Virus record (IMG/VR): IMGVR_UViG_3300003690_003506
Location: 1 to 62,104 of that record
Length of the DNA: 62,104 nt
Strand: one strand, 5' to 3'
Origin: a virus
Shown here in pieces: positions 26,014 through 62,104 of the stretch. Every line of letters starts with the position of its first letter. Position 1 is the stretch's first letter. A model generated the notes under the pieces. That model did not search any database and was not told the origin of the DNA. It saw only the letters and a list, made by a program, of their open reading frames with translations. The translations under genes were made by a program, and so were the position numbers.

Positions 26014-29000
26014 ATGTCTAGCCCATCTGATTATTTTTTAAGCGGTCACGTTGCTAATAAAACCGGGTTTCGGTCTAAAAAGCGGAATATTCCATTTTAT
26101 AATCCTCACGACGAGACAATAAAAGTAAAAATAACTTATGATGAGTTTGCAGATCCTCAAGATTTTCTTGGCAAAGTTAACGGGGTTACAAACAAGCTAG
26201 TAAATCGCTTTATTCTACATTATTATCCTGAATTTTATCCGTACTTACAGGACGCGAGTTACACGTCAGGCATTGCAATTTTGGATGATGCCTTCACCGA
26301 CATAAAGAGAATGTTTAAAGAGTCTCTAGAAGCTGGCAGCTTAATATACTATGTACCACATGACCCTTATTTAAAATCACAGAATAAACATATGGTTTTG
26401 GGAAGCATTTCATCCTTTACATATGATTTGCTGCCTTGTGATGTTCGCACTCTGAAGAAAAGATCTCTGCTAGCTTTCACAGCTAGAATTTATGCAAAAA
26501 TTCAAGTAATGACGGTACCGGCCCCGGGCGACACACTAACTTTTACTACTCGGTCACCTCTGGAAATAAGAGAACTATTGGAATTGGCAAACAGAATGCC
26601 CAGTTGGGATTCGGCCTTGTCTCTTTTTAATCAGGATCAAAAGATAACTAATCCAAATGATCAAACAACAATAGTAATCGGTGGGTTGATGGAAAATAAT
26701 AACCTTATGAACGATGGTTTATCATCTTTCCAATCAGAAATAGCAGGATTTGGGGGGTTGTTCCCCCTACCTATTGATTTTAATGCAATCCAGAAAAGCA
26801 TGATGTTCATTCTTAATGTGACAATTTTAAAATCTATTGTAGAAGAACTGACTGATATTGGTGTCAAAGGCTACACCGGCCGTTCTAAATTTACGGAATT
26901 TGGAGATGCTGACTCAATTACTATATATTTTGGTAAAAAAAGACGTCCTGGTCCTCCACCGCTCCCGTCGGAAACTGCCATTGGTCGGATTACTTATGTT
27001 GTAAACGAAGAGGGCCCCGAAGAAAATGTTTTAAAGACCGGTTATATGACAAATGTCAAATATAACAAAGAATTTCAAGACCCACTGACTCTCTCCACCC
27101 TTAAAAACTATGAATATCTACTTCAACGTATGCGTCTAGCTGCCATTGATCCCAATGGCCCTCCGTTTTCGTTTACAGAGTTTATAACTGATTCCTCTGG
27201 AGATTTTGGATTACCGGCGGATTTTACGCTGGATGAGTTACCAGCACCAGCCCCACCGGTAAAAAATGCATTCCTTAAGCAAGCGGTAGAGATGGGGTTA
27301 GTCGACCTTAAGGATACACAGGCTCTAGAAAAAGGTTTTGTTGAATCTATGTCTCCGGCCGAGATGAAGAAACTAAGACAGCAAGTAAGACAAAATCCAG
27401 AAATTTTTAAAAAGGTTTTTGAAGCCAACAAAGCAAAAGCACTCAAGACAGGGCAAAACGTTGCAAAAGGGATAGCAGCCGTTTTAAATGGCGACATCCC
27501 GGGCGGTAAAAAGAATAAAAAAGCAGCTTTATTATTGAGATCTCTTGGAATCGACGAAATAGCCAAAGAAGCTATGATCTGTGCCACTTTGGGGATGGCG
27601 CCCTCGATGGCCAGAATTGCCCAGGCCGCCGCAAATGCGATGCAGACAGTTGGTCAACGCAATCTTCCGTCGCCGGGGATGCAGATAAATATCCAGCCGT
27701 ATGAAGTCCCTGATCACCCGGACTCGGCCGTCAAAATACCACCGATCGATATTAAAAAGATTTTTAAGACTTTTACTATTGATGGAGATATGTGGAAAGA
27801 GATATTAAAAATTATGCTCGACAGTCTCCAGGAAATGGTTATGGAAATTGTTAAGGGCCTCGCCGAGCTACTGAAGGATTTGTGTGAATTAGCTAATCCC
27901 TTTGCCTCAGACTTCGGTGAAAATGATCTTGCAGACTTGGTCCAAGACAATCTAACCGACGATGCTGCGAATCTTCCAAATATTTCTAATCCGTCCGCAT
28001 TGGATCAATTGTTTGAAAGAGATAACATGACTTTTGACGACGTCATGAAATATTTCAGAGATTTATCGGCAATACTAAGTTCAATGGAAATTTGCTTTTT
28101 GTTTACGGATCGTGATGAAGTTTCGTATGATACGATGGAAAAAATATTGGACTTTAATGCAGCATATGGAGATGTGCATATTAGAAATACTCTTAATAAT
28201 TATGGAGCGGTGATGGGATTTTTTGCGAATCTATCGCGCTTTGTTGATTTTTCAGATTTTTGTAATAAGATAGCCAGCGACTTAGTCCATTTGAATCATG
28301 ATAATCTTTGTTTATTGGAGGTAAAAGCTCCAGATGCTATAGCTGATATCTTGAGTAATATAGCAGATGGTATCAAACTTGATCAGCCAAAGATTAATTT
28401 AGATTGTCCTTTGCGCCCGGGTTTTATCAAAAATCCTTTGGTCAGCGATACAATACCAGATTTGATAAATACAATTGTAAGAGTGGTTGAAATGGAGTTT
28501 ACCAATTCTATTAGTTCGGTCACTCAGATTCTTAAAGAGCCGACAATTGTTACGAACAAGGATGCGGATGGAAATATAGATCCGGCTATGAAAAAAATCA
28601 TGGACGCGCTGGCGGCTGTCCGCGACGGCGATGAGGATCCCTATTCCGAAGTGCGCAAGCCCCCGACTGACGCCACAAAGGCCGTTTTAACGAAAATCAA
28701 AGAAGCCTTTGCTGAGATCCCACTCATGGATACTAGCAACCTCCAGGAGACGTGTAATATTGACCTGACACAGGCCTTTGGAGTCGAAGTAGGTGCCGTA
28801 CAAGGTGTCTTGAATATGATTATTACCATCCTTGATGAACTTCTATCGGATCCAGAATTTTTATCAGCAATAGGCGATCTTGAGGATATGCTCGGCCGTA
28901 TGAGCGGCGACCCCGACGATTCCGCCGCACCACCAGTAACAGCAACAAAAACCTTTCAGTTCCCCAGGAAATATAAGAATGAGTTTACGAATTATATGGG

Positions 29001-32000
29001 TACCCCAGACCGAGGCGCCTTAAGCACCAGCTTCAGCGTATATACTTTCGAAATCTCGAGGGCGAACAAATTTAGTTCTAAAGCGAGTTTCAGCTACCAG
29101 AATGACTCCTTCGACAAGCTGGAGCTTAAATTTAGATTTGGTCGATCACAAACTCGACCCAGGTGGGCGCCCTTCAATCCGCCGCGGTCGAACAACGTGA
29201 CGTACACACTTCCTGATGGCACCTCGGGTAGCTATGCAATCCCGGGTTATGAGTTGCGGGCCCCGGGCAGCGACAGCACTGAAATGGTAAAAATTAAATA
29301 CGAGCCCCACACCGGTGCCAGCTACGGCACCGATCGGGGCAGAATTCAAGTTAACCTTAGTTCAGATTTAATTCCGGGCGCTGGCAATATAAGTGCGTTT
29401 AGCTTTTCTGCTCCTGATACCAGCGGCACTGGCCAGGGTGGGAATTATAATCCGACGATCGTGGACATAAATCAATATGTTGATATTTTCGCTGCAGCGC
29501 TGGCAGAAAATCTTAGGTTCGACCCGGGCCCCGGGCCACATCCCCACGACTTTGTCGGCGACGCCTGGGAACGCATTACTCTCCAGGATTTTGATGCGCC
29601 CACCGTCACAGGTATTTCGGCCACCCCCGAGGAAATCAAGAAGGAGATCGTCGGCATATTGTTTCCTGCAGCTTTTGCTGGGATGGTCGAATCAGCTTTT
29701 GATTATATCGAAGCAAACGGTATCTTTGATATGGAAAGATTAAATGCAGTGAACTTTTTCCATGACAATAGGAATTGTATACCAGATAACGTGGCCGATT
29801 TCTTAGATATAGATGGTATTTTGGCAATACTAAAAGATGAAATGTTGGACGCACTTTGTTATGATGAGGACAAAGAAGATTTAAATCCAATGGGGGGTAA
29901 GATAAGGGATGTTATTCGATACGGGCTTTTCTTGTTATTGACTCAAATTCATATAGCCCAATTCTTGATCAAAAATATATTTGTTCTCTCGGCATTCAAA
30001 GTAGAAGATATTATGGCATCCCAGATGATAACAGATTTACTAGCAGTAACAGTTCGCGATCAAATGACGGCATTCTTGCAAACAGAACCAGTTATAGGGC
30101 ACCAGATGGTTCAATATTTTAGCAAGAAGGCCAAGAGACCATCAATTGTTTCTAAAGGCGGCTTTGAAGATAGGGCGGGAAATATGGTTTTCCCAGTGGC
30201 CACACCCACAACAAATATGCAGGATTTCAATTTTGAAGATTCTTTTGATGGATTTAGTATTAGTGATTTTCCTGCAATTATTGAATATGTCACTAAATTA
30301 CGAATGTCTGATTCAAAAAAATCTGTGTCTAATGCCATGAAAAGGTCGAGCGCAATGACTCCTTCAAAGTCGGTTGATAAAATCTTTTTAGAAAACATTC
30401 TTACAGTACAGCCTATGTGGTTCGGAGACCTTACTCCTGAATTATATATAGAGGATGGCCAACACAATATTGTGATGCATCAACCCGCCATCACCAACAA
30501 CAGCTGGAAGACAGTCCTGCTCCGAGAGCGGATTCAGGGTGATTGGGCACAGCAGGCCACTTTCGGGAAGCTCGTCTTGGAAAGAGTGGTTGTTTGGGAT
30601 TCTGCGTGGGTCACCTTCGCGACAGGCGGCGAGCCTCGATCGGCCGCCGGCGTGTCCTGGGCGCCACTCGCCGGCGCCAACAATGGATTAGAAATTAGTT
30701 TGTTTAATCACGCTTTAGGTATTGAGGGTGCCGCGATGGTGCACTGGAGTACCAACGAAGCCCATACTGCCCGGGATTTGCTGAGCAGCGACGATCGAGA
30801 CTCGTCGTCCGGAATTAGCTTTTTTGGCCTAGGCATAAGACATCGTATAGTATATTATTTACCCGGCACCGAACACGACCAGCCGGGCGAAGACTTATTT
30901 TATAGAGATTACAGCGACGAGCTTCATCCATCCCAACGCCACGATTCGTTGGGTCTACGTAGGGTTGTTATAGCAGATCTCGGTACTCTAGTATCATTGG
31001 GGGATAAACAGACTACAGACCCAGCCTTCGCAGAGGATATGCTATATTATAATTCATCAAAAATTCGTGGGAGCGAAATTAGTCAAATTAGTACAGATCC
31101 CGTGTATCAAGAACTTTTTGGGAAGACGTTTAACAAAGAATTGATTATGCTTATTCCTATAATGTATAATTTCTATCTTACAAATGCTCATTTCTCCGAG
31201 ATAGACGATCGTTTCAGGGCGCCCAAGTATCGTTGTCTTCAAATATTTAAAGATAGTGTACGTGACGAAAATAATTTTAGCAGCCCTGTTCCGGATCCTG
31301 CGGGAGCAAAGCGCTTGGGAGCAATAGATCCAGAAGATCCTCTTCTTGATTTAGGATTCTCAGCATTGGACTTTATATTAAAAATGCTTATACAAACACC
31401 AATTAAAATTTTTAAGGGGGTATCTGAAATAATAGATCCGCACGTTGCAATATCTAAGATAGTTAAAGATGTTTCCGGCGCGGCCTTTAATGAGCTTGCT
31501 AAAGTTATCGACGCAGCTCCTCCGGTCATCGCGTTGCGTGAGCCTATACCACACCCTCGCCGCGGGCAGCCTCCTGCTAATGATCCCGAAGGCGAGCCGA
31601 TTGAAGAAGACGCAACACTCCCGGCAATTGCACCAGCCATCACCGGCGAGGGTATTCTTTCCTTCCTCTTATGTATGATTACAATAGGAATGAAAGAAGG
31701 TCTTGAAGATGTATCTCCAACTCCGCCCGGTTGGCACAAGGCCCTGGAAGATGGAATTCTTTATCCAAAAATTAATATAAAAGGTGTTGATTTCCTCGGC
31801 ACATTACCGGGAATGTTTATGGCACCTCCGTTTGTGTTTGGTATAATATATTTGCTATTATCACTACTTATGAAAGAAGTGGAGGATGATCTTAATGATT
31901 TGAGAGACGATGTACCGCCAATGTCGCCGCCGGCTGATGATGGTCTTAATCCACCTGGATCCAGCGCCTGCCCTGATCCAGTGGCCACCACCCTTAGTCC

Positions 32001-32043
32001 CTCGAATCCTAATTATGTGCCACCAGAGTCTGGCGAGTGCTAA
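26014..32043 (+). CDS. Giant (2009 aa) baseplate/virion structural protein
   Basis: A 2009-aa structural protein. The backbone is helical and AT-rich with many acidic helices. Two parts differ: residues about 970-1200 and 1490-1650 are GC-rich and beta-rich, and look like inserted domains. A stretch near residues 850-856 (KDADGNIDPAM) looks like an EF-hand loop. A hydrophobic segment lies near 1936-1952 (PPFVFGIIYLLLSLLM), followed by a Pro-rich end. Located directly before gp25 and gp6, it is probably a baseplate protein; a tape measure is less likely as there is no long coiled coil. The ATG at 26014 has only a weak ribosome site. Confidence 0.8.
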   Translation: MSSPSDYFLSGHVANKTGFRSKKRNIPFYNPHDETIKVKITYDEFADPQDFLGKVNGVTNKLVNRFILHYYPEFYPYLQDASYTSGIAILDDAFTDIKRMFKESLEAGSLIYYVPHDPYLKSQNKHMVLGSISSFTYDLLPCDVRTLKKRSLLAFTARIYAKIQVMTVPAPGDTLTFTTRSPLEIRELLELANRMPSWDSALSLFNQDQKITNPNDQTTIVIGGLMENNNLMNDGLSSFQSEIAGFGGLFPLPIDFNAIQKSMMFILNVTILKSIVEELTDIGVKGYTGRSKFTEFGDADSITIYFGKKRRPGPPPLPSETAIGRITYVVNEEGPEENVLKTGYMTNVKYNKEFQDPLTLSTLKNYEYLLQRMRLAAIDPNGPPFSFTEFITDSSGDFGLPADFTLDELPAPAPPVKNAFLKQAVEMGLVDLKDTQALEKGFVESMSPAEMKKLRQQVRQNPEIFKKVFEANKAKALKTGQNVAKGIAAVLNGDIPGGKKNKKAALLLRSLGIDEIAKEAMICATLGMAPSMARIAQAAANAMQTVGQRNLPSPGMQINIQPYEVPDHPDSAVKIPPIDIKKIFKTFTIDGDMWKEILKIMLDSLQEMVMEIVKGLAELLKDLCELANPFASDFGENDLADLVQDNLTDDAANLPNISNPSALDQLFERDNMTFDDVMKYFRDLSAILSSMEICFLFTDRDEVSYDTMEKILDFNAAYGDVHIRNTLNNYGAVMGFFANLSRFVDFSDFCNKIASDLVHLNHDNLCLLEVKAPDAIADILSNIADGIKLDQPKINLDCPLRPGFIKNPLVSDTIPDLINTIVRVVEMEFTNSISSVTQILKEPTIVTNKDADGNIDPAMKKIMDALAAVRDGDEDPYSEVRKPPTDATKAVLTKIKEAFAEIPLMDTSNLQETCNIDLTQAFGVEVGAVQGVLNMIITILDELLSDPEFLSAIGDLEDMLGRMSGDPDDSAAPPVTATKTFQFPRKYKNEFTNYMGTPDRGALSTSFSVYTFEISRANKFSSKASFSYQNDSFDKLELKFRFGRSQTRPRWAPFNPPRSNNVTYTLPDGTSGSYAIPGYELRAPGSDSTEMVKIKYEPHTGASYGTDRGRIQVNLSSDLIPGAGNISAFSFSAPDTSGTGQGGNYNPTIVDINQYVDIFAAALAENLRFDPGPGPHPHDFVGDAWERITLQDFDAPTVTGISATPEEIKKEIVGILFPAAFAGMVESAFDYIEANGIFDMERLNAVNFFHDNRNCIPDNVADFLDIDGILAILKDEMLDALCYDEDKEDLNPMGGKIRDVIRYGLFLLLTQIHIAQFLIKNIFVLSAFKVEDIMASQMITDLLAVTVRDQMTAFLQTEPVIGHQMVQYFSKKAKRPSIVSKGGFEDRAGNMVFPVATPTTNMQDFNFEDSFDGFSISDFPAIIEYVTKLRMSDSKKSVSNAMKRSSAMTPSKSVDKIFLENILTVQPMWFGDLTPELYIEDGQHNIVMHQPAITNNSWKTVLLRERIQGDWAQQATFGKLVLERVVVWDSAWVTFATGGEPRSAAGVSWAPLAGANNGLEISLFNHALGIEGAAMVHWSTNEAHTARDLLSSDDRDSSSGISFFGLGIRHRIVYYLPGTEHDQPGEDLFYRDYSDELHPSQRHDSLGLRRVVIADLGTLVSLGDKQTTDPAFAEDMLYYNSSKIRGSEISQISTDPVYQELFGKTFNKELIMLIPIMYNFYLTNAHFSEIDDRFRAPKYRCLQIFKDSVRDENNFSSPVPDPAGAKRLGAIDPEDPLLDLGFSALDFILKMLIQTPIKIFKGVSEIIDPHVAISKIVKDVSGAAFNELAKVIDAAPPVIALREPIPHPRRGQPPANDPEGEPIEEDATLPAIAPAITGEGILSFLLCMITIGMKEGLEDVSPTPPGWHKALEDGILYPKINIKGVDFLGTLPGMFMAPPFVFGIIYLLLSLLMKEVEDDLNDLRDDVPPMSPPADDGLNPPGSSACPDPVATTLSPSNPNYVPPESGEC

Positions 32044-35813: not shown

Positions 35814-38800
35814 ATGAGCTTTAAAGATTATTTTAACAAAGCATCAACTATTCGCGCGTTATCCAACAAATCTGCTGAAGAAATAGCAGCAGAAGTTGAA
35901 TCGGTTGGATATCACGAAGAAGACATAGTTCGCGAAGAGAGGTTTATCCCCCGGGTTGACTTTACTCGCCCAGAGAGTTTTGTTCGTTATGGCTCTGCGA
36001 CAGAATATTACGAGCAATCTTTAAAAAGAATTTATGAAGATTATCCATATGATGGTTCTCTTAGAGAAAAAATCAAATGGGAAAATGAATCAACTTATTT
36101 AGATTTACATATTTTTAATAATAGGTATCCTCGCACCAATGGGTATGCGCTGTTTTCCCCGGCCGGCTGGGGAACTGTTAGTAGCGGCTCGGGAGATACT
36201 GGTTATGGATTACCGGCAGATTTAGAATACATTTACTTGAAGGGGGGGCCCCACGCCAACCTCCACGGGATGTCGCCTTACTCAATTCAGTTTACTGGGT
36301 CAAACTATTACGACACAGATAAAAATCGTGAAAACAATTTAAAGTTCGATCTGAAAGATAATGGAATTTCGGTTGAATTCTGGCTTAGGAAAGACGCGTT
36401 TGATGCCTCTAAGACACAGAAGGAAGTAATATTTGATCTTTGGAATGGCGAGGCCTCTTCGTCGGCCCAATACGGTCGTTTTCGTATCGAGTTAACGGGC
36501 GCTGCCAACGAGGCAGGCGCTGATCCATTTAGGGTTACCCTTGTGTCTGGTACGACGGGTTTTGTAAGTTCGTCTATTGTGGCCAGCACATTTACAACAT
36601 CCGACGTCGCCGACGATAATTGGCATCATTATGCCTTCACATTTAAATCAGCTTCTGCTGGAATTACATCTAGATTTTATGTCGATGGCACACTGAACAA
36701 TGAATGCCTCAGCGGAACTATAGCAGCCGATGGAGATCCATCAGCCACGGCTGCGGGGATGAATGAGGTGACAGGTGCCCTCAGAGCTTATATGGGCGCC
36801 TTAATAACCCCAAATCATAGAAGCGTCAATCCCGCTGCTGCAGGCGCAGGCAAGCTCTCGGGCTCTATCGATGAGTTTAGATATTGGAAGACAGAGAGGA
36901 CGGCTAAAGAGATCGGCCGTCATTGGTTTACCCAAGTTGGCGGCGGAACAAATGATGACCCAACTCCCGGCATTACCACTACCGAAAATATTAATACTAA
37001 ATTGGGTGTTTATTATAAGTTTAACGAAGGAATTACCGGAGTATCATCCACGGATTCGGTCGTACTTGATTATTCCGGCCGCATCACCAATGGAGCTTGG
37101 ACAGGATATTCGAGCGACTCAAGAAATACTGGTTCGGCAATCGTTTCTTCTAGTGCCGCAATAAAAGAATTTAAAGATCCAATTATTTATAAATTTCATC
37201 CATCGGTGGAAACTTTAGCTGCCGATTTGCAGATAACTGGCTCTGAATATGATGTAAATAATAATGCATCAATATATAACTCTATTCCGGCTTGGATTAC
37301 AGAAGAAGATTCGGGCGATAAAGGACAAAAACAACTCAAATATTTGACACAAATTATGTCAAGCTATTTTGATACGCTTCAATTACAGATTGAATCGTTG
37401 GCAAACCTTAAAGATATAACTTACAACACAGGAAGCAATAAGCCATTGCCGTTTGCTGAAAAACTTCTTTCCTCGGCCGGCCTCTTTGCACCAGAAATTT
37501 TTATAGATGCAGATGTGTTGGAAAAATTGGCTGATAGAAGCGAAAATAGAGTATTTGAGAAATCTCTGCATGATGTAAAAAATACGATATATCAAAACAT
37601 TTATAATAATTTAGTTTATATCTATAAAACGAAAGGAACCGAAAAAGCTTTTCGAAATATGATTAGATGTTTCGGCATCGATGATGAATTAGTAAAACTG
37701 AATATGTATGCCGGCGGTATTGAGTATGAGGCGAGAGATAATCGTCGTAACATAGTATCGATAGTGGATAAATTTGTTAATTTTAATACAGCAGATAATA
37801 GTAACGCGGTGGTGTATCAACAGCAGGATGCTTCAGATACAACAGATACTACAGGATATTTTCCTGCTAATTCTAAATTGGCCGATGGCTATGCTCAAAC
37901 ATTTGAGGCGGACATAAGCTTCCCCAAGAAGCCAGATGCGAATGCTTCCTTTTATTTTGACACAAATACAATAAGTTCTTCGTTATTTGGTGTTCATGGG
38001 GTTGTTTCTGAAGAATCTGTTCCACAATGGGATGATACTGCCGATGCTGCCAATTATCAAGTATTTGCTGTAAGAGATGAGATAGATTCCACCAATGTAC
38101 GCTTTGTGTTGACTGGTACTGAGGGGGGTTATGTACCATATTTGGTATCTGATTTATACCAAGATACTTATGAAGATAGCCACTGGAATTTAGCTGTTCG
38201 AATTAAGCCAGAAAACTACCCGTATGCCGGTACGAAGCCGGGTGGCGAGTTCGGCGTCCTTGGCGGCGCTTGTTGCGGAAATTATACCGTAGAACTCCAC
38301 GGAATACAAATAGACGCTGGCGTCGTACGTAATGAGTTTAATTTGAGCGGCTTAGCAGCAACCGAATCAGATAGTTTAAAAAAGACACCAGCTGGATTTA
38401 TAACGGGCAGTAAGAGAGTATATCTTGGAACACACAGGACAAACTTCACGGGCACGATTCTTAACTCTACAGATGTTAAAGTTAACGCATGTAGATATTG
38501 GTTTGATTATGTAGAGGACGAGACACTCTTGGGTCATGCATATGATACAGAAAATTACGGCTCTTTAAAACCACGTGCTTATGCTTACCCATTCGATTTC
38601 TCTGGGTCATATGGTGATATATTAAAATTTGATACTCTAGCATTAAATTGGGAATTCTCACAGAATACTGGTTCCGATGCATCTGGACAGTTTACTGTCA
38701 AAGATCGATCTTCTGGATCTGCAACCACCGCGGCAGCGCGCTTTGGTTGGCTTGGGAATTACTTAAACAGACAATATAGCGGAAAAGGCTATGATTTTTT

Positions 38801-41800
38801 GACTTCTTCAAGTACGGTAGTTGATAAAGACTTTGTTGTATCTTCAAAACTTCAGTTACCAGAAAATGTTCAATCTAGTGAAATGGTTACAGTTCTTAAT
38901 GCGCAAGAACAAAACGTCTTTACAAGAGATTCTCGGCCAATAAACTATTTCTTTGCTTTTGAAAAGAGCATGGCGCAAGCAGTTTCAACCGAAATGATCA
39001 ACTATTTCGCTACCTTAAAAGATATTAATACTCTAATCGGTGCTCCAGTAAATCGATATCGACCCGAATATAAAGGACTTAAGATATTAAGACAAAGATT
39101 TTTTGAAAGAGTGAGCAATAGTGAGATTGATTTTGAAAAATTTTATGAATTTTATAAATGGTTCGACTCCACCTTAACAATAATGCTGCAACAACTTGTT
39201 CCTGCCTCTGCTGATTTTGCCGAGAATGTAAGAACAGTTATAGAAAGCCACGTTCTCGAAAGAAGCAAATACCAAAGCAAATTCCAGAATGTTAAAAAAC
39301 AACTTAATGATATCGAGGCAGTCGCGGTTGGTTCTGAAACTGATACAGAATCGACTATTATGGCGGCCACTAACACACCCGGAAGTGGATTTGAAACACC
39401 CAATAAAAATACAAATCGACAAACAGGGGATTCTGATCTGGCCGGCTCCGGGCAAGCGGGCTGGAAATGGAGCACGCCAGGCCTTGATGAGAACGAGGAA
39501 TTAGACCAAACAGTAAATAAAGAATATTGGAAATATGAAGCCGAAGCTGACAGTCCGGTACTTTCTCAAAGCGCCGCAGCAGTTAATGAAGATAAACAGA
39601 TCATTCGTGCAAACATTCGGGTTACAAAGCATCGTGCCAAGGGATCTGTTTACAGATTTTCTGCCGGCGGAAATTCAATTCTCGGTAGCGTCGGGTTCAA
39701 TGAAAACAAGAAGGTTGATTTTATATATAATGCCACGACTCCTTATGGAAAAACATCACAAGGCGAAAGAGCGCCAGAAAATATTATCCTTGCTTCCGGC
39801 TCTGGTGTTGAAAAGTTGCAGGGCACATCTGATGATATATTCCCAGCAGTCTCACAAAGGCTTGGATTTGATGTAGATCCAGATATTAATAAAAATAATG
39901 ATAGTGAAAATAAAAATGATGGTAATTTATTAGTTCCATTTAGTTTATATTCTTCTTCTGTCGTGAGCGGCTTCAATCAGGAGGTGATTAAAAATTATGC
40001 TTCCGGAGTGATGATTACAAATTTACATCACGATCTTGTTTACGATAATGATATACCGATGCAGGGCCCATTTGCCGAAAAGTTTGTTGGTGGACGCTCT
40101 CATCGACATATTGAGTTTAATCAACCTTGGATCCGGCGCGCCGCGGCAGTTAGAGATTATAAACAAACAAAGTATGTTAGTTTTTCAGGTTCATTCGATG
40201 CAAGCAAAGCGCCTAGGTTCGTAATTGACAATAGTTCAGCGTGGACTGCAATTACCGGTGCGACATACGCCGGCTGGGTTAGGTTTAACGATCTTTCACA
40301 GGATAGAACGTGGTTTAGATTTGGAGATAGCGGCTATCAAATAGCTGTATTTTTATCAAATGGAAATGTTGCTTTAAGTCGTTCTTGGAGCGGCCGACCA
40401 ATTCACGCTGAAGCTGCCACGCCCTTCGCCGGCGGCGCGCCCGCAACAGACACTTGGTATCATGTTGCCATAGCATATAGCTGCTCGGCATTGGGAGATG
40501 TCCCAGTAGTCTATGTTAATGCCACAGGTACTGTTGCGACCGCAGCGCAAACCCCGATCGGAACCCCGGTAGCTGCAGATCAGAAAGCTGCCATTGGTGG
40601 CGACCAACACGCCAGCTGGACAAACAGCGGCCCTTCAAGTATCAATCAAACGTTTGGTACTGCCAGTATGGCAGAGTTTACATTGTGGAAAACTTGCTTG
40701 ACCGAAGATGAAATTAAAGAACTGTATCATCGCAGTGCAGGTGAGATTGATGAAGTGCGCGCCTATAATGTGGGCCCATATGATTTATATTCCCATTCCA
40801 GAGTTTCTGAATTAGCTGGTTGGTGGCGTATGGGTATGGGCACTGGTTCTGCCGCCCACGGTGGTTGCCATGATTCTGAAGACAACTATATTGATGAAGT
40901 TAGCGGCTCAACCTGTGTCATATACGATATGTCCCCCGTCGGCAATTTCCTACACGGCTCAGGAAGTGATGAATTCTATTCCGGCGATGGGGCCAGGGGC
41001 GGTATCGCCACTCTGACATCGGCCGACAAACTTGTTATGGGAGGTGGAGATTTTACTGCATCAATACCCGGACATGCTTGGCAGCCGGCCAGCAAGGGCG
41101 GCCTTTCGTGGGATACGTCAAAGCGTCGCCCAGAAGCGTGGCAGCTAAAGTTTAAAGATGTAACGTCATCTGGAGGAGACACATTTAAGTCTTCCTTCGC
41201 CATCACCCCGGCAAACTATGATGCCACTCTCGCCCGCGGTCACGACAGTAATATTCCAACTGCGCATCGTCTTCGCAACGAAGGCACAAAACGACCGGTT
41301 AATATTCAGAACATCTTAATGACAACAGCTTCTACGGAAATCAGACTTGATGGTGTATTGGCTCATGGTTCTATCGGTAACTACCAGAAGAATTATCAAA
41401 TTGTTCAATCTGCGGCCCGAAGTAAGAATGATCCATTCTTTAGGGATGAGTCATTTAAATTTGCTATTCACCCGGAAACCCTCAGTATTAGGGGTCGGCT
41501 ACCCTTGGACCCACCACGTGGTCGCTCGTTGCAGTGGGATGGAGATCCCAGTGTTGCCGGTAATACTTTTATCCGCACCTTTACAAACGTTACTGGCAGC
41601 GCCAACGGTTGGAATTATGTGGCCGGCGGAGCTGGAAGTGATGCTAAAGCATTTAGTGTTTCGGCCTGGGCATATTTGACAAATTATGGTGATAGTTCCA
41701 CTGGGATGCTTTTTAATATTGGCGCTATCGATCGTTACGCACAGATGGTGAGTAATAAGCTTCGATTTGTTATAGACGGCGCCGCAGATGGTCGGGTTGA

Positions 41801-44800
41801 AAGTAGCACTTTAAGTTTGAATCAATGGTATCATATTACTTTGACTTTTGCCGGCGGCGATCCCGGTGGTTCAAATACGGCAGACTATATGAAAGTGTAT
41901 ATTGATGGCGTGCTGGATTCTACAGTCACTCAAGAGTTAAATAATCCGGATTACATCTCCGAGGCCGCGACCACATATCAGCTTACGATCGGAGCCAGTT
42001 ATGGCTCAGCCCCGTGGAATGTTTGGGGTGGCAATATAGTCGACTTTGCTTTTTGGACAAAAGAATTGTCTGCTGCAGAGGCCGCCGAAGTTTATAATAA
42101 CGGCACAAGGCTTAATTTAAGGATTACTTCACCAGCTATAGGGTCTCTTTTCTTGTGGTATAAACTTGGTGACGGTCATTACCCGGGCGACTCCGGGCCC
42201 GATGGTTACCTATTTGACGAAGCTGGTGGAACTTATGGATATACGTATAACTTCGATGCCACTGCGTCGATCTTACGTTCCCCTCCATATGGCGCAGTTG
42301 GTCCATCCTGGCAAGCTGCCGGCGGCAATTACGGATCCTTCTACGGTCGACACTTCTCCAATCCCGGTACTCAGTTCCCCGGCGGCACTTTAGATTACGC
42401 TTTGCCGGACAGAACAGGCCCCAACTCAAATAAGAGCATCATCGTCACCCGGTTCGGCGCTCCAGGTGGCCCGGAAGTGCAAAGCAGGGGTTATATGGAC
42501 CCGGCCCACGAAGAGATGTCGGTCTACAATGCTTTGCCATATAGAAATCGGTCAGTAATTGATTTCGGTGGTGTTTGGCGCGATAAGCTTTTCTCAATGC
42601 GATCGCACTGGGAAGGCCCAGGCGATGCCATTTGGACCGGCGGCGTGATCCGAGGCCTTGCGTCTTCATCGATCGACGGAACTATTACTGCTTCAATTAA
42701 TACAAGGGATCACTTAAATGAACAAAGAGGATTGAATCAGCTTTCGGCATTGCGATGCGGAAAATATGGATCTGATGCCACGTATGGCATAATAACCGAA
42801 CCGGTGCATAGGAACCAGCACGATAATCACAATTATTCGTTAGCATCAGGCTTTACTCGAGTCGATCGTGATCTGGGGTATTGTGAAACTCCATCATTTC
42901 ATAAAGTAAATAGAAATTCCAGGAAAATAATAAAAAGTGGCAGCGCCGCACAGACCTATCTTGGGGGCCCCAAAATTAACACGCTCACGAGTTCGGTATA
43001 CGACAATTTGTATATACAACATCAGATTCCTCAAAATATGTCTCAATATACCTGGGTTACAGCTTCTATGTGGAAAGGCCTAGCCCAAGGTCAGATCATT
43101 GCCCGCGGAACAACATTGGCCGAAGGAAGACTTGGTGGAGGCACTGGCCATCCAGCATTCCGGAACAGCCCGGCTTATAGTGGAAAGAGAGCCGCTCTCT
43201 TCCTCGCACCACTTTCTTATCCAACTTGTTATAGTGCTTCAACTTTAGAGATTATTTGTACGTCAAGCCTTGTTGCTGCTTCGGATTTGACCATGTCATG
43301 GACCAACAAACCTCCGGGGATGATGTTTCCATTTAGCTTACCGACTAATATTTATGATAGTATCGTATTCAGAAATCCTGGAAATATGATGGCTGGAAAT
43401 TTTGGTGTACTGCAAGCTCTCATTAAGGATCCTGTTTGTGAATGGCCAATAGATGATGAAAACCCCTCCGCATATCTGGGAGCGGAGCCATCGATGTCAA
43501 TGGAAAATACTCTGGGCTACCCCCTTCAGGGAATGAAATGGATAGGTGATTCTAACGAAATGCACAATCCATATGATTTTACACCCTTATGTTGGGATTG
43601 GCTGGATACATCTGATCTCAAGCTCGCCCCGCCGAAAAATAAATTTCAATATGCAAATAGATATTTAAATGTATCTGGTTCCCCAACAAATGCAGAAGGC
43701 TTTATTAATGTCTTTATGATCCCCAGCGGCGCCTTTGCCGATTCTAATAACATGGACCCTCGGCTGGCTTCTGCGCATATGTTTAACGTTTTGATGTGTC
43801 ATCGCAACGGTCCGTACGGATATCCTACTTTCAAGCAAGTTCGAACAGGACAACATCCTGTCTCTCGATGGTTAAGAAAAAATAATCTGATTGGTGCTTT
43901 GGTGCCTCCTCCTGTTATTAGAGGCGGCAATGGCACAATTCAAGGATTGAGGTCAAATAAGTTCGTGAATTATAAAGAAATGCCAATTGCATCGAATGCA
44001 CTGCCCATTACCTTTGCATTTGAGGATAATGATGAAGATCCAAACGTTGTGAACAATATCATATTAAACGTATCTTATCAGAATAACTTGGATTACTTTA
44101 CCAATCAAGGTCTCAATAATCGTTTGAATCTCGGAGAAAGAAAATCTGCAGATGATGGGAATGCATATAACACACTTGCTGATTTTACGCTCGAATCTAA
44201 TTTGAGTACAGTCATCCGATTTGGTCAAAAGATATATCCAGCAGCCGAGAATGTCTATCAATCTAAGGTTCGAACGAGAGAAAATTACGATATTCGAACC
44301 ATATGGAATGATGTTCGTCAATTCCGTTCGACGCAACTTGATGTAACTGGTGCAATCCTCAGCGGCTATAATGGCACAACTTCTTCGATGGGTCGTATCG
44401 ATCCAAGCGCAAGTATGTGGCCACTTGATGGCAAATATGGTACTCGATCGGTGCCCCCAAATGCACTTGGTGAGTCATATGCAAATACTGGATCTACCAT
44501 GGGTGAGCTTTTGAATACCTATGCAAGATACGGGAATGATGATGCAGGCACTCTTCGGCCCGGGCCAAGTTATGTGATGCCGTTACGTATGGGATCGGGA
44601 TCCCACCCAGACGATTCCACGGATACTGAATCATATGTGATTATTACTGGTCCAGAGTGGGAAGCACCAGACCAGGCAGGAGTTAACCCATATCAACCAT
44701 ACGAAGATTATGCAAAAACTATTCGTTTAATTGGTAAAGATATGTCCATCATTCCTGAATTTAGGATCAGCGAACATATAGAAACATATTTTAATATATA

Positions 44801-47663
44801 CGGCGGGGATTTCTTGGCCAAATTTGATAATGTGCTTAGTTTAACCGGCGCGTCGCTCAGTGGCACTGCACCCACAGCCTCCAACGATAGAGGCACGATA
44901 TCGCCAGATTTCTATAAAGTGTATTCAACAACAGACTTTATGAAATATTTTAAGATTGTCGACGATGATTTGGCGGATCAAGCAAATGCAGCAGATAATA
45001 AAATACGAAGACACTCCCTCGAACTTACCTGTGATGCTGTACTTCAATTCTTGCCTTATAAGGGATTTTATCCGGCCGAGCGAACGTTGGAATTAGCCTC
45101 ATTGCTTTCTAAGTCACTAGGACGGAGACAGCACGACTTTGGTGCGTCATACGTTCCAGGGGAACCACACAATGCCACTGATGCGATCGCAGATAGGATT
45201 TTGTATGAACCATTAATGGCGCCAGGAATTTTATATAACACAATAAAATCAGGAATTGCTGTCAGTAATTTCGTGATGCTTCAAACAAAACCTTACACCG
45301 ACCAATACTCGGTGTCGGGTATGTACGCATTAACGTCGAGTGTGGCAATCTTACCAGAAAATAGTGGTTCCGCATTGGATTCGTGCGGGACGAAAAGGTG
45401 CTTCGCTGAATCAGCTGGCATCAATGGCTATTTTAGCAACTTCTTTTTTGTCGGCAATGGGAATGCGGGGGACCCGCTTCGGCAGAATATTGCGAGCCAG
45501 TTATATACAAATAAAGGTTTTATGCCTATGTTAGACTTAGTTGGCTCCGGATCTTCAGCTGAAACCGGAAGTGCAGAAGGTTACTATATGCATAGACTTC
45601 CGTTCGAAGCGCTCAGAGATCCTGAAAAATATCTTGGGGAGAAAACTATTCCCGGTCGATGGATCTTTGATACAGGCATGTATAGTTCTAGTACCTATTA
45701 TGTAAATGGTCTCGCCGGCGGCTCGTCGGCGGCGATCGTGGCGCCACCATATGTAGTGTATAGCGGTGTCGCCGCAAAACCCTTCTATAAGTTAGCCATA
45801 GATAATTTCTTATGTGAAACCTATAATTTTTTCCAGCCCGGGCCCCAAGCAACAACTTTTCTATCGAAAGATGATGATTCATTTGGCAGAGTAGAAAAAG
45901 GTAAATATTATGGACTAAGAGTTAATCTTGGAACTGCCGACCAGATCGGTGGATCCACAAACCTTGCAGAAACTCCTAATTCTTTCTGTATGTATAGCCG
46001 CGCAAGTGCATTCGGCGTACCTCTCGTATTATCGGGTACCAATTCACATGATACTGGCTATGGTACTTCCTCCGAGTCAAATCGCTGGCCAACATTTGAA
46101 CACGTATTACCTCCCTATTATTATGGTCGTGCATCGGCAAATATAATTTTTAAAGCACCATATTCGGGCAAAGTAACAGTGGATGAAATTTTAGGTAACT
46201 GTACAGTTGAATATAATAAAAGATCGTTTTGGGAGGGACCTAAGTATTATAGCTATAATGATCCGACGATTGAAAAGTTTGATGTTGAAGAGCGAAGTGT
46301 TGTACAATCGCAAATAGATACAAGCGTTGATTTGTTCGAAAAATATCTTGTTGTTCCAGAGGGTACGAATACACAGAAGGCTCGGTGGATGATTCGACCG
46401 AAATTTGAAACTCCTATAATGAATTTCTTGGATAAACCCACTACTCCGGTTAATACAGGATCTATGTATTCCTGGGGCGGCAACAGCGCTGCTGGTTATT
46501 ACGCCGGTATGCCAATTCGTGGTATGTGGCATCAATATGGTCGCCCACCGACAGCATCCGCCGGCCTTACCTTAGATATTGTCGAGCTGCCTACCGAAAT
46601 GAGTTCTTCAAAGCATGGAGATATTAAAGTTGAATCGTTGGCAAACCTTGTAGGATTTAATACAACCGCGAAACGAATCGGCCAAGTTGCCTCGTCTAAG
46701 AGACTTGAGGAAGCAATTGTTTGCATTCCGTTTAGAACATCTAAGGGTGAAAGAAAATTCTTTGATGTTGATAAAGATTCGCAAGAATATGTCACGCAAT
46801 TAGCCCTTTTGAATAAGTATATTTTCCCGCCGACATTTGATTTCTTGATAAATGAGGACGTAAGCCCCGTTGCTTTCTATGCATTTGAGTTTAATATGAA
46901 TTTGACTCAAGATGATTTGATCAATATTTGGCAAAACTTACCACCAGATTCACAGTCGAAGTTCCAAAAGACTACAACTACAATCAAGATTCGAAGTCTC
47001 GTTGATAGATTGCTTGATAATGATGAGCATTTACAGTGGATGGTGTTTAAAGTTAAGAGAAAAGCAGAAAAGGATTATAATGTTCTTGTGAAGAAGAAAC
47101 TTGGGAAAGGTCTCCCGATTGTTCAGCCAGCAATTGACTCGCCATATTCGTATAACTGGCCCTATGATTATTTCTCATTTGTTGAGCTAATTAAGATAAA
47201 AGAACAGGTAGTATATGCAACGGAGGATATTATAACTGAAGAAGATCGCGAACCAGCAGTCATTCCGGACTTAAGAGAATTTATTCCTGCCCCAGCAGAT
47301 ATGCCAGAGAGAACAAGACCTCGACAAGATGTTCTTGATGTTTCTCATAAAGGCAGAAAACCTGGAGAACTGATTAGCGAAAAGGAGCTCTTGGATGCTG
47401 CAAGACGTAAGAGGACGGAAGAAGAACGATTAGCAAGAGTCGCAAAACAGCCCACTAATGCCGAGAAGTTGGCTGATCGTGTAGATGATGATCGTGCCTC
47501 CCAACGCCGAGCACAACGTGAAACAAAGCGAGCTCAAAAGCGTTCTGGAAAGAAAGCCAGCACCTTGAAACGTACGCCGCCGCCGCGACTTACTGAAGAC
47601 CAGCGAAAAGAGGCAATAAGACGCAAAAGACGCGCTGATAAGCGCGCCAAGAAGAAGAAATAA
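35814..47663 (+). CDS. Giant (3949 aa) LamG-domain virion protein
   Basis: The largest gene. Three concanavalin/LamG-like domains are recognisable: about residues 183-374 (VEFWLRKDAF, NWHHYAFTF, GSIDEFRYWKTERTA), 1466-1642 (WYHVAIAYS, AEFTLWKTCLTEDEI) and 1942-2100 (WYHITLTFAG, VDFAFWTKELSAAEA). These folds often bind carbohydrate. The rest is large strand-rich or mixed sequence with no known family. Residues about 3890-3949 are Lys/Arg-rich (AIRRKRRADKRAKKKK). The N-terminal 180 residues resemble wedge-type attachment parts. A baseplate-periphery, adhesive role is likely. Gene start lacks a strong ribosome site. Confidence 0.82.
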   Translation: MSFKDYFNKASTIRALSNKSAEEIAAEVESVGYHEEDIVREERFIPRVDFTRPESFVRYGSATEYYEQSLKRIYEDYPYDGSLREKIKWENESTYLDLHIFNNRYPRTNGYALFSPAGWGTVSSGSGDTGYGLPADLEYIYLKGGPHANLHGMSPYSIQFTGSNYYDTDKNRENNLKFDLKDNGISVEFWLRKDAFDASKTQKEVIFDLWNGEASSSAQYGRFRIELTGAANEAGADPFRVTLVSGTTGFVSSSIVASTFTTSDVADDNWHHYAFTFKSASAGITSRFYVDGTLNNECLSGTIAADGDPSATAAGMNEVTGALRAYMGALITPNHRSVNPAAAGAGKLSGSIDEFRYWKTERTAKEIGRHWFTQVGGGTNDDPTPGITTTENINTKLGVYYKFNEGITGVSSTDSVVLDYSGRITNGAWTGYSSDSRNTGSAIVSSSAAIKEFKDPIIYKFHPSVETLAADLQITGSEYDVNNNASIYNSIPAWITEEDSGDKGQKQLKYLTQIMSSYFDTLQLQIESLANLKDITYNTGSNKPLPFAEKLLSSAGLFAPEIFIDADVLEKLADRSENRVFEKSLHDVKNTIYQNIYNNLVYIYKTKGTEKAFRNMIRCFGIDDELVKLNMYAGGIEYEARDNRRNIVSIVDKFVNFNTADNSNAVVYQQQDASDTTDTTGYFPANSKLADGYAQTFEADISFPKKPDANASFYFDTNTISSSLFGVHGVVSEESVPQWDDTADAANYQVFAVRDEIDSTNVRFVLTGTEGGYVPYLVSDLYQDTYEDSHWNLAVRIKPENYPYAGTKPGGEFGVLGGACCGNYTVELHGIQIDAGVVRNEFNLSGLAATESDSLKKTPAGFITGSKRVYLGTHRTNFTGTILNSTDVKVNACRYWFDYVEDETLLGHAYDTENYGSLKPRAYAYPFDFSGSYGDILKFDTLALNWEFSQNTGSDASGQFTVKDRSSGSATTAAARFGWLGNYLNRQYSGKGYDFLTSSSTVVDKDFVVSSKLQLPENVQSSEMVTVLNAQEQNVFTRDSRPINYFFAFEKSMAQAVSTEMINYFATLKDINTLIGAPVNRYRPEYKGLKILRQRFFERVSNSEIDFEKFYEFYKWFDSTLTIMLQQLVPASADFAENVRTVIESHVLERSKYQSKFQNVKKQLNDIEAVAVGSETDTESTIMAATNTPGSGFETPNKNTNRQTGDSDLAGSGQAGWKWSTPGLDENEELDQTVNKEYWKYEAEADSPVLSQSAAAVNEDKQIIRANIRVTKHRAKGSVYRFSAGGNSILGSVGFNENKKVDFIYNATTPYGKTSQGERAPENIILASGSGVEKLQGTSDDIFPAVSQRLGFDVDPDINKNNDSENKNDGNLLVPFSLYSSSVVSGFNQEVIKNYASGVMITNLHHDLVYDNDIPMQGPFAEKFVGGRSHRHIEFNQPWIRRAAAVRDYKQTKYVSFSGSFDASKAPRFVIDNSSAWTAITGATYAGWVRFNDLSQDRTWFRFGDSGYQIAVFLSNGNVALSRSWSGRPIHAEAATPFAGGAPATDTWYHVAIAYSCSALGDVPVVYVNATGTVATAAQTPIGTPVAADQKAAIGGDQHASWTNSGPSSINQTFGTASMAEFTLWKTCLTEDEIKELYHRSAGEIDEVRAYNVGPYDLYSHSRVSELAGWWRMGMGTGSAAHGGCHDSEDNYIDEVSGSTCVIYDMSPVGNFLHGSGSDEFYSGDGARGGIATLTSADKLVMGGGDFTASIPGHAWQPASKGGLSWDTSKRRPEAWQLKFKDVTSSGGDTFKSSFAITPANYDATLARGHDSNIPTAHRLRNEGTKRPVNIQNILMTTASTEIRLDGVLAHGSIGNYQKNYQIVQSAARSKNDPFFRDESFKFAIHPETLSIRGRLPLDPPRGRSLQWDGDPSVAGNTFIRTFTNVTGSANGWNYVAGGAGSDAKAFSVSAWAYLTNYGDSSTGMLFNIGAIDRYAQMVSNKLRFVIDGAADGRVESSTLSLNQWYHITLTFAGGDPGGSNTADYMKVYIDGVLDSTVTQELNNPDYISEAATTYQLTIGASYGSAPWNVWGGNIVDFAFWTKELSAAEAAEVYNNGTRLNLRITSPAIGSLFLWYKLGDGHYPGDSGPDGYLFDEAGGTYGYTYNFDATASILRSPPYGAVGPSWQAAGGNYGSFYGRHFSNPGTQFPGGTLDYALPDRTGPNSNKSIIVTRFGAPGGPEVQSRGYMDPAHEEMSVYNALPYRNRSVIDFGGVWRDKLFSMRSHWEGPGDAIWTGGVIRGLASSSIDGTITASINTRDHLNEQRGLNQLSALRCGKYGSDATYGIITEPVHRNQHDNHNYSLASGFTRVDRDLGYCETPSFHKVNRNSRKIIKSGSAAQTYLGGPKINTLTSSVYDNLYIQHQIPQNMSQYTWVTASMWKGLAQGQIIARGTTLAEGRLGGGTGHPAFRNSPAYSGKRAALFLAPLSYPTCYSASTLEIICTSSLVAASDLTMSWTNKPPGMMFPFSLPTNIYDSIVFRNPGNMMAGNFGVLQALIKDPVCEWPIDDENPSAYLGAEPSMSMENTLGYPLQGMKWIGDSNEMHNPYDFTPLCWDWLDTSDLKLAPPKNKFQYANRYLNVSGSPTNAEGFINVFMIPSGAFADSNNMDPRLASAHMFNVLMCHRNGPYGYPTFKQVRTGQHPVSRWLRKNNLIGALVPPPVIRGGNGTIQGLRSNKFVNYKEMPIASNALPITFAFEDNDEDPNVVNNIILNVSYQNNLDYFTNQGLNNRLNLGERKSADDGNAYNTLADFTLESNLSTVIRFGQKIYPAAENVYQSKVRTRENYDIRTIWNDVRQFRSTQLDVTGAILSGYNGTTSSMGRIDPSASMWPLDGKYGTRSVPPNALGESYANTGSTMGELLNTYARYGNDDAGTLRPGPSYVMPLRMGSGSHPDDSTDTESYVIITGPEWEAPDQAGVNPYQPYEDYAKTIRLIGKDMSIIPEFRISEHIETYFNIYGGDFLAKFDNVLSLTGASLSGTAPTASNDRGTISPDFYKVYSTTDFMKYFKIVDDDLADQANAADNKIRRHSLELTCDAVLQFLPYKGFYPAERTLELASLLSKSLGRRQHDFGASYVPGEPHNATDAIADRILYEPLMAPGILYNTIKSGIAVSNFVMLQTKPYTDQYSVSGMYALTSSVAILPENSGSALDSCGTKRCFAESAGINGYFSNFFFVGNGNAGDPLRQNIASQLYTNKGFMPMLDLVGSGSSAETGSAEGYYMHRLPFEALRDPEKYLGEKTIPGRWIFDTGMYSSSTYYVNGLAGGSSAAIVAPPYVVYSGVAAKPFYKLAIDNFLCETYNFFQPGPQATTFLSKDDDSFGRVEKGKYYGLRVNLGTADQIGGSTNLAETPNSFCMYSRASAFGVPLVLSGTNSHDTGYGTSSESNRWPTFEHVLPPYYYGRASANIIFKAPYSGKVTVDEILGNCTVEYNKRSFWEGPKYYSYNDPTIEKFDVEERSVVQSQIDTSVDLFEKYLVVPEGTNTQKARWMIRPKFETPIMNFLDKPTTPVNTGSMYSWGGNSAAGYYAGMPIRGMWHQYGRPPTASAGLTLDIVELPTEMSSSKHGDIKVESLANLVGFNTTAKRIGQVASSKRLEEAIVCIPFRTSKGERKFFDVDKDSQEYVTQLALLNKYIFPPTFDFLINEDVSPVAFYAFEFNMNLTQDDLINIWQNLPPDSQSKFQKTTTTIKIRSLVDRLLDNDEHLQWMVFKVKRKAEKDYNVLVKKKLGKGLPIVQPAIDSPYSYNWPYDYFSFVELIKIKEQVVYATEDIITEEDREPAVIPDLREFIPAPADMPERTRPRQDVLDVSHKGRKPGELISEKELLDAARRKRTEEERLARVAKQPTNAEKLADRVDDDRASQRRAQRETKRAQKRSGKKASTLKRTPPPRLTEDQRKEAIRRKRRADKRAKKKK

Positions 47664-60205: not shown

Positions 60206-60738
60206 TGATCCTGGGGTTGGATGTTTCAACTAGTATAACTGGTTATACAATATTAGATTACGATGGCAATGTCGTTGCTTGTGACCACATCGATTTGCGC
60301 AAAGAAAAGAATTTTTTTAAGAAGGCTCGGGAAATCCAGGGTCGTCTCCATTTTATAGCGGACACATATAAAATAGAGCACGTCTATATTGAGCAGTCAT
60401 TGCAATCGTTTCGGTCGGGCTTCTCTTCAGCGCAAACGCTTTCATTATTATCAAAAATTAATGGCATTGTTTCCTGGTTGTGCTATAATATATTTGGAAG
60501 CGAACCGCAATATTTTGCCGCAACATCCGCTCGCAAGCTCTGCGGCATTAAAGTTCCCAAGGGCCAGAAAGCAAAAGCGGTGTCGCTGCAATTTGTGGTT
60601 GACAACGTACCCAACTTTGAGGTACAATATACAAAACATGGAAATCCTCGCCCCGGCTATGCAGACCGGTCAGATAGTTATGTTATAGCAAAGGCTGGCT
60701 GGCTGAATGAAAGACAAGAAACTCAAAATACTGGTTAA
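60205..60738 (+). CDS. RuvC-like Holliday junction resolvase
   Basis: A 177-aa RNase H-fold nuclease. The four acidic residues of RuvC-type sites are present: Asp6 in LGLDVSTS, Glu63 in YIEQSL, and Asp154 and Asp157 in DRSDS. It would cut branched DNA during replication and before packaging, the role played in T4 by gp49 of a different fold. ATG overlaps the preceding TAA by one base. The end overlaps the primase gene by 32 bases. Confidence 0.85.
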   Translation: MILGLDVSTSITGYTILDYDGNVVACDHIDLRKEKNFFKKAREIQGRLHFIADTYKIEHVYIEQSLQSFRSGFSSAQTLSLLSKINGIVSWLCYNIFGSEPQYFAATSARKLCGIKVPKGQKAKAVSLQFVVDNVPNFEVQYTKHGNPRPGYADRSDSYVIAKAGWLNERQETQNTG

Positions 60739-61642
60739 TGTGTTGGGGTCCCATTATAGGACCAACAACGAGTTTCTTTTTAAGTGCCCCTATTGCGATC
60801 ATCACAAGCGTAAATTCTCTGTAAATCTCGATAAAGGATTCTATAAATGCTGGGTCTGTGATACCCGAGGCAAGAACCTGTATCGTGTCGTTCGCCGCTT
60901 CGGCACCAACCATGATAAAGCACAGTGGCGTGATCTCACATCTGAGATTGACTTTGATAAGCTCGAAGATTTATTTGCCGAGAAAGTAGAAGAAAAACAA
61001 ATACTTGAGATGCCTGAAGGATTTGTATCTTTGGCAAATAAAGATGTGCCTCCAACTGGTTTCGCCGCAAGAAACTATCTAAGGAAGAGAAATATCAGCA
61101 AGCAAGATATTGTTTGGTGGAAAATGGGCTATTGTAGTGAGGGCGAATACGAAGGACGAATCATTATTCCATCGTTTGATGAAGAGGGTGATTTGAGTTA
61201 TTTCGTTTCCAGATCTTATGATAAGGCGTTTTATCCAAAATATAAAAATCCACCCGCAAGTAAAAATATTATATTCAACGATTTGTTTGTTGATTGGAGC
61301 TCGGATATAATTCTTGTTGAAGGAGTTTTTGATGCAATTATCGCGGGCCGCAATGCGGTTCCTGTTCTTGGATCCACATTAAACCAAAGTTCATTATTGT
61401 TGAGGAAAATTGTTAAAGAAGACGCAGGAGTCTACATTGCTCTCGATCCTGATGCAAAGAAAAAAGAACTTGAGATTATCAAAACTTTATTGGATTTTGA
61501 CATTGAAGTATGGAAGGTGGACATCGGCGACAACGACGATGTGGGCTCCATGAGCAAAGAGCAATTCCAAAAATGCCTGGAAAATGCGACCCTTATCACT
61601 TCGGACAACTATTTATTGTTGACACTTGCAATGTCAGTGTAA
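60707..61642 (+). CDS. DNA primase (Zn finger + TOPRIM)
   Basis: A 311-aa DnaG-type primase. The zinc ribbon is Cys27-x2-Cys30 and Cys48-x2-Cys51 (CPYC, CWVC). The TOPRIM domain has the Glu in ILVEGVFDAI near residue 208 and DPD in YIALDPDA near residue 246. It makes RNA primers for the lagging strand, like T4 gp61 with its helicase partner. It is shorter than bacterial DnaG, with no C-terminal helicase-binding domain seen. The start lies inside the RuvC-like gene. Confidence 0.87.
   Translation: MKDKKLKILVNVLGSHYRTNNEFLFKCPYCDHHKRKFSVNLDKGFYKCWVCDTRGKNLYRVVRRFGTNHDKAQWRDLTSEIDFDKLEDLFAEKVEEKQILEMPEGFVSLANKDVPPTGFAARNYLRKRNISKQDIVWWKMGYCSEGEYEGRIIIPSFDEEGDLSYFVSRSYDKAFYPKYKNPPASKNIIFNDLFVDWSSDIILVEGVFDAIIAGRNAVPVLGSTLNQSSLLLRKIVKEDAGVYIALDPDAKKKELEIIKTLLDFDIEVWKVDIGDNDDVGSMSKEQFQKCLENATLITSDNYLLLTLAMSV
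61620..61636. promoter_or_regulatory. Small inverted repeat at the primase end
   Basis: TGACA (61620-61624) and TGTCA (61632-61636) form a 5-base stem with a 7-base loop within the last codons of the primase, before AAAGGA and the 48-aa peptide. Could be an operator or weak hairpin; no T-run follows, so not a terminator. Confidence 0.2.
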
Positions 61643-61656
61643 AGGAACAATATAAA

Positions 61657-61803
61657 ATGAAACTATTATTATTAAACACCGTAGCTTTAGGTAAGGATCT
61701 TTTGTTACTCCGAGCCCCTCGTGAGCTTTATGTGCTTTTGGCGGCGAATAGTGCGGTTGCTCTTGTTGTTGGCCTCGTTGTCGGCCACTGTTCCCTGCTT
61801 TAG
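61657..61803 (+). CDS. 48-aa hydrophobic peptide
   Basis: ATG 61657 has AAAGGA at 61641-61646 at good spacing and encodes 48 residues. The C-terminal half (YVLLAANSAVALVVGLVVG) forms one likely membrane helix ending in HCSLL. A longer frame from 61510 lies inside the primase gene and is not preferred. Small one-helix phage proteins often act in membranes, for example in lysis or superinfection control, but no such role is shown here. Confidence 0.55.
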   Translation: MKLLLLNTVALGKDLLLLRAPRELYVLLAANSAVALVVGLVVGHCSLL

Positions 61804-61812
61804 GAGCGAAAA

Positions 61813-62013
61813 ATGAAAATCACCAAACAAAGACTTGAAGAGATTATTAAGGAAGAGCTTGGAAGCATAAGCGAAGTAACTCAGGGCCTCGGAGTAAACG
61901 AGGCGCTAGACACACTTTATCAAACAATAGATCTTTTGCTGAATATATTGGACCCCGAGACGGTGGTCCAGGAGCTCGAAGCCCAGATTAAAGACATAAG
62001 AGGCAGCCAATAG
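61813..62013 (+). CDS. Small helical protein with MKITKQRL N-terminal tag
   Basis: A 66-aa protein. The first 16 residues (MKITKQRLEEIIKEEL) are basic-then-acidic amphipathic helix and almost the same as in the next gene. The rest (LDTLYQTIDLLLNIL, then VVQELEAQIKDIRG) is also helical. GGAGCGAAAA precedes the ATG. I recall similar N-termini on several small proteins in marine viruses, in some way like T4 capsid-targeting leaders, but this is an inference. Confidence 0.75.
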   Translation: MKITKQRLEEIIKEELGSISEVTQGLGVNEALDTLYQTIDLLLNILDPETVVQELEAQIKDIRGSQ

Positions 62014-62104
62014 ATGAAAATCACCAAGCAAAGACTCAAAGAGATTATTAGGAACGAGCTTCATGAAGCGCAATCACATGTAAGAACTGAGGATCTGCTT
62101 GATA
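62014..62104 (+). CDS. Second MKITKQRL-tagged protein (3' truncated by window)
   Basis: The ATG follows the previous stop directly. Thirty codons are visible: the tag MKITKQRLKEIIRNEL, then HEAQSHVRTEDLLD. In the first 48 bases, 42 are the same as in the preceding gene, so the leader has been duplicated or shuffled recently, while the following residues differ. The gene runs off the right edge. Confidence 0.75.
   Translation, partial: MKITKQRLKEIIRNELHEAQSHVRTEDLLD

Follow-up and report, generated by a model that had tools for sequence, protein, structure and literature searches.

In uncultured marine T4-like phages, a short N-terminal sequence, here termed tag A, stands at the start of hundreds of proteins whose remaining parts are unrelated, and this tag is very probably a cleavable capsid-targeting propeptide. 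The evidence consists of the portability of the tag among unrelated proteins, a protease consensus at a fixed distance, the presence and adjacency of a Peptidase_S77 prohead protease, tag swapping, and the synteny of the island containing tagged genes; binding to the core, cleavage, encapsidation, and ejection are inferred. In the mechanism we propose, tag A would attach dissimilar small proteins to the prohead core (the scaffold) as the head assembles, and a T4-type prohead protease would then cleave at (L/I)xE, with residue 14 and/or ~21-22 as the probable last residue before the cut. The cut would free the cargo within the head, from which it would enter the next host along with the DNA. 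A second tag of the same phages, tag B, would perform the same job, with cargos moving between the two tags.

The tagged gene pair and its genomic setting

The window (the whole stretch of DNA that was analysed) is a 62,104-base virus record and is itself a fragment. A RuvC-like resolvase and a DNA primase lie upstream of a pair of tagged genes at its end, where we recognised the following features:

60707..61642, + strand: DNA primase (phrog_47, E=8e-49), by synteny the left border of the tagged-gene row in 31/32 relatives
61657..61803, + strand: 48-aa hydrophobic small protein between the primase and tagged gene 1, with neither tag A nor tag B
61813..62013, + strand: tagged gene 1, 66 aa, made up of tag A and a 45-residue cargo (identified as an ORF with a position-specific score of +46.7)
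61813..61875, + strand: putative tag A propeptide of gene 1, residues 1-21, MKITKQRLEEIIKEELGSISE, with predicted cuts after IKE-14 and/or ISE-21
62014..62104, + strand: tagged gene 2, start only, 30 codons, ending with the contig (score +41.4)
62014..62067, + strand: putative tag A propeptide of gene 2, residues 1-18, MKITKQRLKEIIRNELHE, with a predicted cut after LHE-18

Both genes of the pair open with MKITKQRL(E/K)EII(K/R)(E/N)EL, their DNA being identical at 42/48 bases, and the remainders of the two proteins exhibit no mutual similarity. This confirms the claim of the preliminary description that a 16-residue start is common to two adjacent genes that are otherwise unlike. As gene 2 is truncated by the contig end, the comparison of remainders within the window is limited to the first 14 post-tag residues. 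The gene 1 cargo has no relative at E<0.1 among the fetched loci, and a structure model of gene 1 (built without an alignment, pLDDT 72) contains only the tag helix and two further helices. Over the whole gene 1 protein, (L/I)xE is matched solely at residues 8-10, 12-14, and 19-21. Neither head genes nor Peptidase_S77 were identified in the window, which is only a fragment. Two very large ORFs are present at 26014-32043 (2009 aa) and 35814-47663 (3949 aa), and these presumably encode virion proteins.

Following the primase, 31/32 relatives with downstream sequence have between one and seven genes that carry tag A and/or tag B, and the resulting island is usually closed by a large conserved gene of ~860-985 aa. 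The 48-aa hydrophobic protein (61657-61803) is kept at the same place in many relatives, and the set of tagged genes varies from phage to phage. The tagged row starting at 61813 is such a variable cargo island, and the window stops inside it.

Distribution of tag A and the proteins behind it

Tag A was defined as MKITKxRLKxIIKEEL. A degenerate DNA pattern for this sequence identified at least 119 stretches in the viral collection and a single stretch in 257 Gb of bacterial and archaeal genomes. The sole bacterial-genome match is located in an Opitutia MAG (L248, PBSV01000031.1) on a contig with tag A on two genes and tag B on three, which is therefore phage-like; it probably represents phage DNA that was placed in the bin of a marine Opitutia genome, and it provides a weak hint of the host. 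Relatives of the neighbouring primase added 55 loci to the tag search. Among the fetched viral contigs, tag A starts 257 unique proteins at the first pass (median length of the complete ones, 110 aa) and at least 410 distinct proteins in the final set. The parts behind the tag in the fetched loci fall into 146, 175, or ~247 unrelated clusters, depending upon the set and method, and 150 cluster representatives align solely in the tag (consensus MKITKxxLKxIIKEELxxxxxE, mean column identity 4%). The preliminary description had envisaged a family of tagged small proteins and would have been refuted by a tag confined to the pair with homologous remainders; the scan of related phages bears out the former and excludes the latter.

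Chance similarity is ruled out by reversed-sequence and random-contig controls. True tags scored +14 to +50 with a position-specific matrix, while the best of 27,517 reversed-sequence starts scored -11.4, and a random viral sample of 120 loci (1.06 Mb) yielded zero tag A starts. The conservation of I12 and E15 is partly imposed, because the search pattern demanded such residues, though E14 is 98% conserved despite being only weakly constrained by the pattern. The four tagged records that were fully read each contain 3 to 6 tag A genes, some within the post-primase island and others elsewhere. When 50,697 phage records were searched by tblastn, the 66-aa protein and the consensus tag gave chance-level matches only, and tag B gave no match.

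The majority of the cargos have no Pfam match. Pfam domains of tag A cargos include DnaJ, pentapeptide repeats, and S-adenosylmethionine lyase (the latter on a divergent tag), and those of tag B cargos include a Zeta-toxin-like kinase, protein kinase, NUDIX, GNAT, peptidase M23, C-5 DNA methylase, and HAD. Such enzyme domains are of the sort expected of injected proteins. The S-adenosylmethionine lyase (L228:13203-13907; G015 about 151103) scores above the Pfam cut-off, and its divergent tag A ends in MLLE before S. The S-adenosylmethionine lyase-type enzyme of phage T3 is anti-restriction, and the L228 lyase may likewise be an injected anti-restriction protein. Several cargos resembled ADP-ribosyltransferases by eye, an identity for which Pfam gave no support.

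Predicted cleavage, head genes, and exchange of tags

The T4 prohead protease gp21 cuts after L/I-x-E (PMC9026906). Among the 150 representatives, (L/I)xE starts at residue 19 or 20 in 49, versus 5.2 +/- 2.2 in shuffles (maximum 14 in 1000), and (L/I/V/M)xE starts there in 72, versus 8.8 in shuffles. Past residue 22 behind tag A, (L/I)xE is at background level. Tag A thus meets two criteria for a T4-type capsid targeting propeptide, namely a short N-terminal sequence on unrelated mature parts and an (L/I)xE at the border of tag and cargo; it also has an internal I-x-E at residues 12-14. Since about half of the representatives lack (L/I/V/M)xE at 19-20, either residues 12-14 or other sites serve in these proteins, or cleavage is not universal. 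At ~residue 60, the major capsid protein of this phage group carries LL(R/K)E before S/A/Q, which parallels the FLTE before A at residue 65 of T4 gp23 and makes it plausible that the shell obeys the same cleavage rule.

Peptidase_S77, the family of T4 gp21, was found in 18/20 primase- or tag-selected records and 15/16 long tag-selected records, making a total of 33/36 tag-bearing or closely related records and meeting a third criterion, an encoded gp21-type protease. The family was present in 3/16 records of a random control, which drew on shorter contigs than the tagged records. The tagged phages also encode a gp23-type capsid, gp20-type portal, and gp17-type terminase. Among the 119 tag A-selected loci listed, S77 occurs in 28 (5-10 expected) and at least one head gene in 59. 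At least 12 tag genes sit 0-14 bp from S77, every one on the same strand, and several tag genes are far from head genes.

The T4 prohead-core genes 67 and 68 lie directly before gene 21, in the spot matching the S77-adjoining tag genes, and several tag genes occupy exactly this gp67/gp68 position. Together with the many tagged proteins that are small, of unknown function, and devoid of any known domain, this leaves some room for an account in which the tagged proteins are structural parts of the prohead core that are degraded at maturation, and not cargo destined for the host. We consider it unlikely for the tagged proteins in general, as gene content that varies among close relatives and cargo with enzyme domains are both unlike essential core parts, though it could apply to the protease-adjacent subset. 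A conserved gene that directly follows the prohead protease or lies close to it (L194:19078-19524, L206:2120-2554, and L200:11175-11579) starts with MKKSELKKILKPLITECIKESLLEDG, which resembles tag A and is followed by LxE. This gene possibly encodes the core protein from which tag A derives.

Tag B has the pattern MKL(L/I)(L/M/F)ENW(R/K)(K/R)(F/Y)(L/I/V)xE, or MKLLxENWRKFLxE in short form. In the sampled loci, it was found in at least 120 stretches and at least 189 distinct proteins (median 201 aa) forming at least 94 cargo clusters; (L/I/V/M)xE is present in 188/189 of these proteins, a count largely set by the search pattern. The T4 ipIII protein starts MKTYQEFIAEA, with targeting mapped to residues 4 and 7 and processing to residues 8 and 10 (PMC9026906). 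The W-x-x-(F/Y)-(L/I/V)-x-E of tag B has the same spacing as Y4-x-x-F7-I8-x-E10 of ipIII. Resemblance to the capsid targeting sequence (CTS) of T4 (aromatic residues at 4 and 7, I/L at 8, and E at 10) is thus met by tag B and not by tag A, and for this reason we refer to tag A as CTS-like in function and not as a homologue of the T4 CTS.

In the fetched loci, 8 of the ~247 tag A cargo clusters recur behind tag B. Six cases were found in which a cargo bears tag A in one phage but tag B in a second, with identities of 85% (L175/L142), 82% (L237/L053), 88% (L115/L118), 87% (L315/L248), and 75% (L014/L329) for the cargo pairs, and further shared cargo was recognised by eye (L008/L146 and L153). 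In the swapped cargos, alignable sequence begins at residues 18-24 of the tag A proteins and 15-20 of the tag B proteins, i.e., at or near the predicted cuts, which for tag B would fall after residue 14.

The exchange of tags also bears upon whether tag A might be a protein-protein docking helix for another site in the infected cell, such as the host polymerase, the replication compartment, or a membrane. Tag A is a charged amphipathic helix in the model (residues 5-20, mean pLDDT 72), and many tag genes adjoin the primase and not head genes. However, we regard this account as improbable, because it leaves unexplained the fixed-distance protease consensus, the S77 adjacency, and the exchange with a T4 CTS-like signal. 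There is very little to recommend a DNA-level origin of the tag, either as a repeat or recombination site read as protein or as a translation-enhancing 5' leader. A codon bias does exist (CAA at residue 6, AGA at 7, and GAA at 14), consistent with common ancestry of the tag or recombination within it, but most synonymous positions vary near background while the residues are fixed, the tag is always in frame at the start codon, and tag B, of another DNA sequence, replaces tag A. The third-position variation at conserved tag residues indicates selection on the protein. Plain tandem duplication with later divergence of the remainders, as the adjacency and 42/48 identical bases of the window pair might suggest, merits almost no credence and is refuted as a whole account, since the remainders are not homologous but form ~247 unrelated clusters, among them DnaJ, pentapeptide-repeat, and S-adenosylmethionine lyase domains, each with a fold of its own, and the same cargo is found behind a different tag, although spread of the tag by duplication remains possible.

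A cleavable packaging signal for internal head proteins, as suggested in the preliminary description, is the best-supported reading, given the protease site, the S77 protease, the head-gene adjacency, and the swap with tag B. Packaging has not been shown directly; neither virion proteomics nor cleavage data are available for the tagged phages, so their virion content is inferred.

Relation to known packaging systems

The internal proteins of T4 are described as a highly diverse defence set in which the CTS alone is conserved (PMC3012670). As proposed for tags A and B, the T4 CTS (of IPI-III and Alt) is a short N-terminal propeptide on unlike small proteins (PMC3012670, PMC9026906) with an (L/I)xE site for a gp21-type protease, and tag B matches it at all four functionally mapped ipIII positions. 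In contrast, the T4 CTS has 10 residues, whereas tag A has ~21, with a different sequence and no aromatic residues. The marine phages further differ from T4 in having two interchangeable signals and apparently in making much broader use of them, with ~247 cargo clusters for tag A and 94 for tag B among the loci sampled. A more distant parallel exists in phiKZ and SPN3US, in which inner-head ejection proteins have N-terminal propeptides that are cut after xxE by a related prohead protease (PMC5694885), though these propeptides, unlike tag A, are mostly >100 residues and include no short shared tag.

The idea of a delivery system not yet described therefore holds only in part: the mechanism is the known capsid targeting of T4, while the tags themselves, the number of cargos, and the interchangeable two-signal form appear to be undescribed in the literature searched. 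Literal tag-string searches across 5.39 million papers found no published description of the tag, nor did word searches of the Far-T4 paper find it mentioned. We lean, with some reserve, toward the broader view that a portable two-signal packaging code, readable from sequence alone, operates in uncultured marine T4-like phages and marks a very large and so far unrecognised host-delivered repertoire. The two tags may sort cargo by kind, with tag A mostly on proteins without known domains and tag B richer in enzyme domains. Proteins delivered by the virion share no fold, which makes them some of the most difficult phage proteins to identify. Should the tags be packaging signals, they would supply a sequence-only rule listing hundreds of candidate injected effectors in uncultured marine phages, possibly anti-defence or host-takeover proteins, and would also serve as new short signals for loading phage heads with foreign proteins, a role that the T4 signal already fills.

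Flavobacterium phage immuto (MW353175) has the same head gene order as the tagged phages, with S77, gp20, and gp23. At least four of its proteins start with MKKS(Q/E)(L/I) and continue with a helix like that of tag A, e.g., MKKSQLRQIIKEAL; the tag A-like core is about two residues shorter than that of tag A. At least four other starts resemble MENFDLKKFLVENKLTxNSxLLxE, some of them adjoining terminase and protease, and this tag B-like signal differs from tag B in sequence. As immuto is cultured, with Flavobacterium sp. LMO8 as host, and has two tag sets, with proteins starting MKKSQL... and FDLKKFLVENKL... among those tagged, the packaging idea is testable. In its genome (L250, MW353175.1), proteins annotated as cob(I)alamin adenosyltransferase share an N-terminal MxxFDLKKFLVENKLT-like tag with hypothetical proteins, and this annotation may be spurious.
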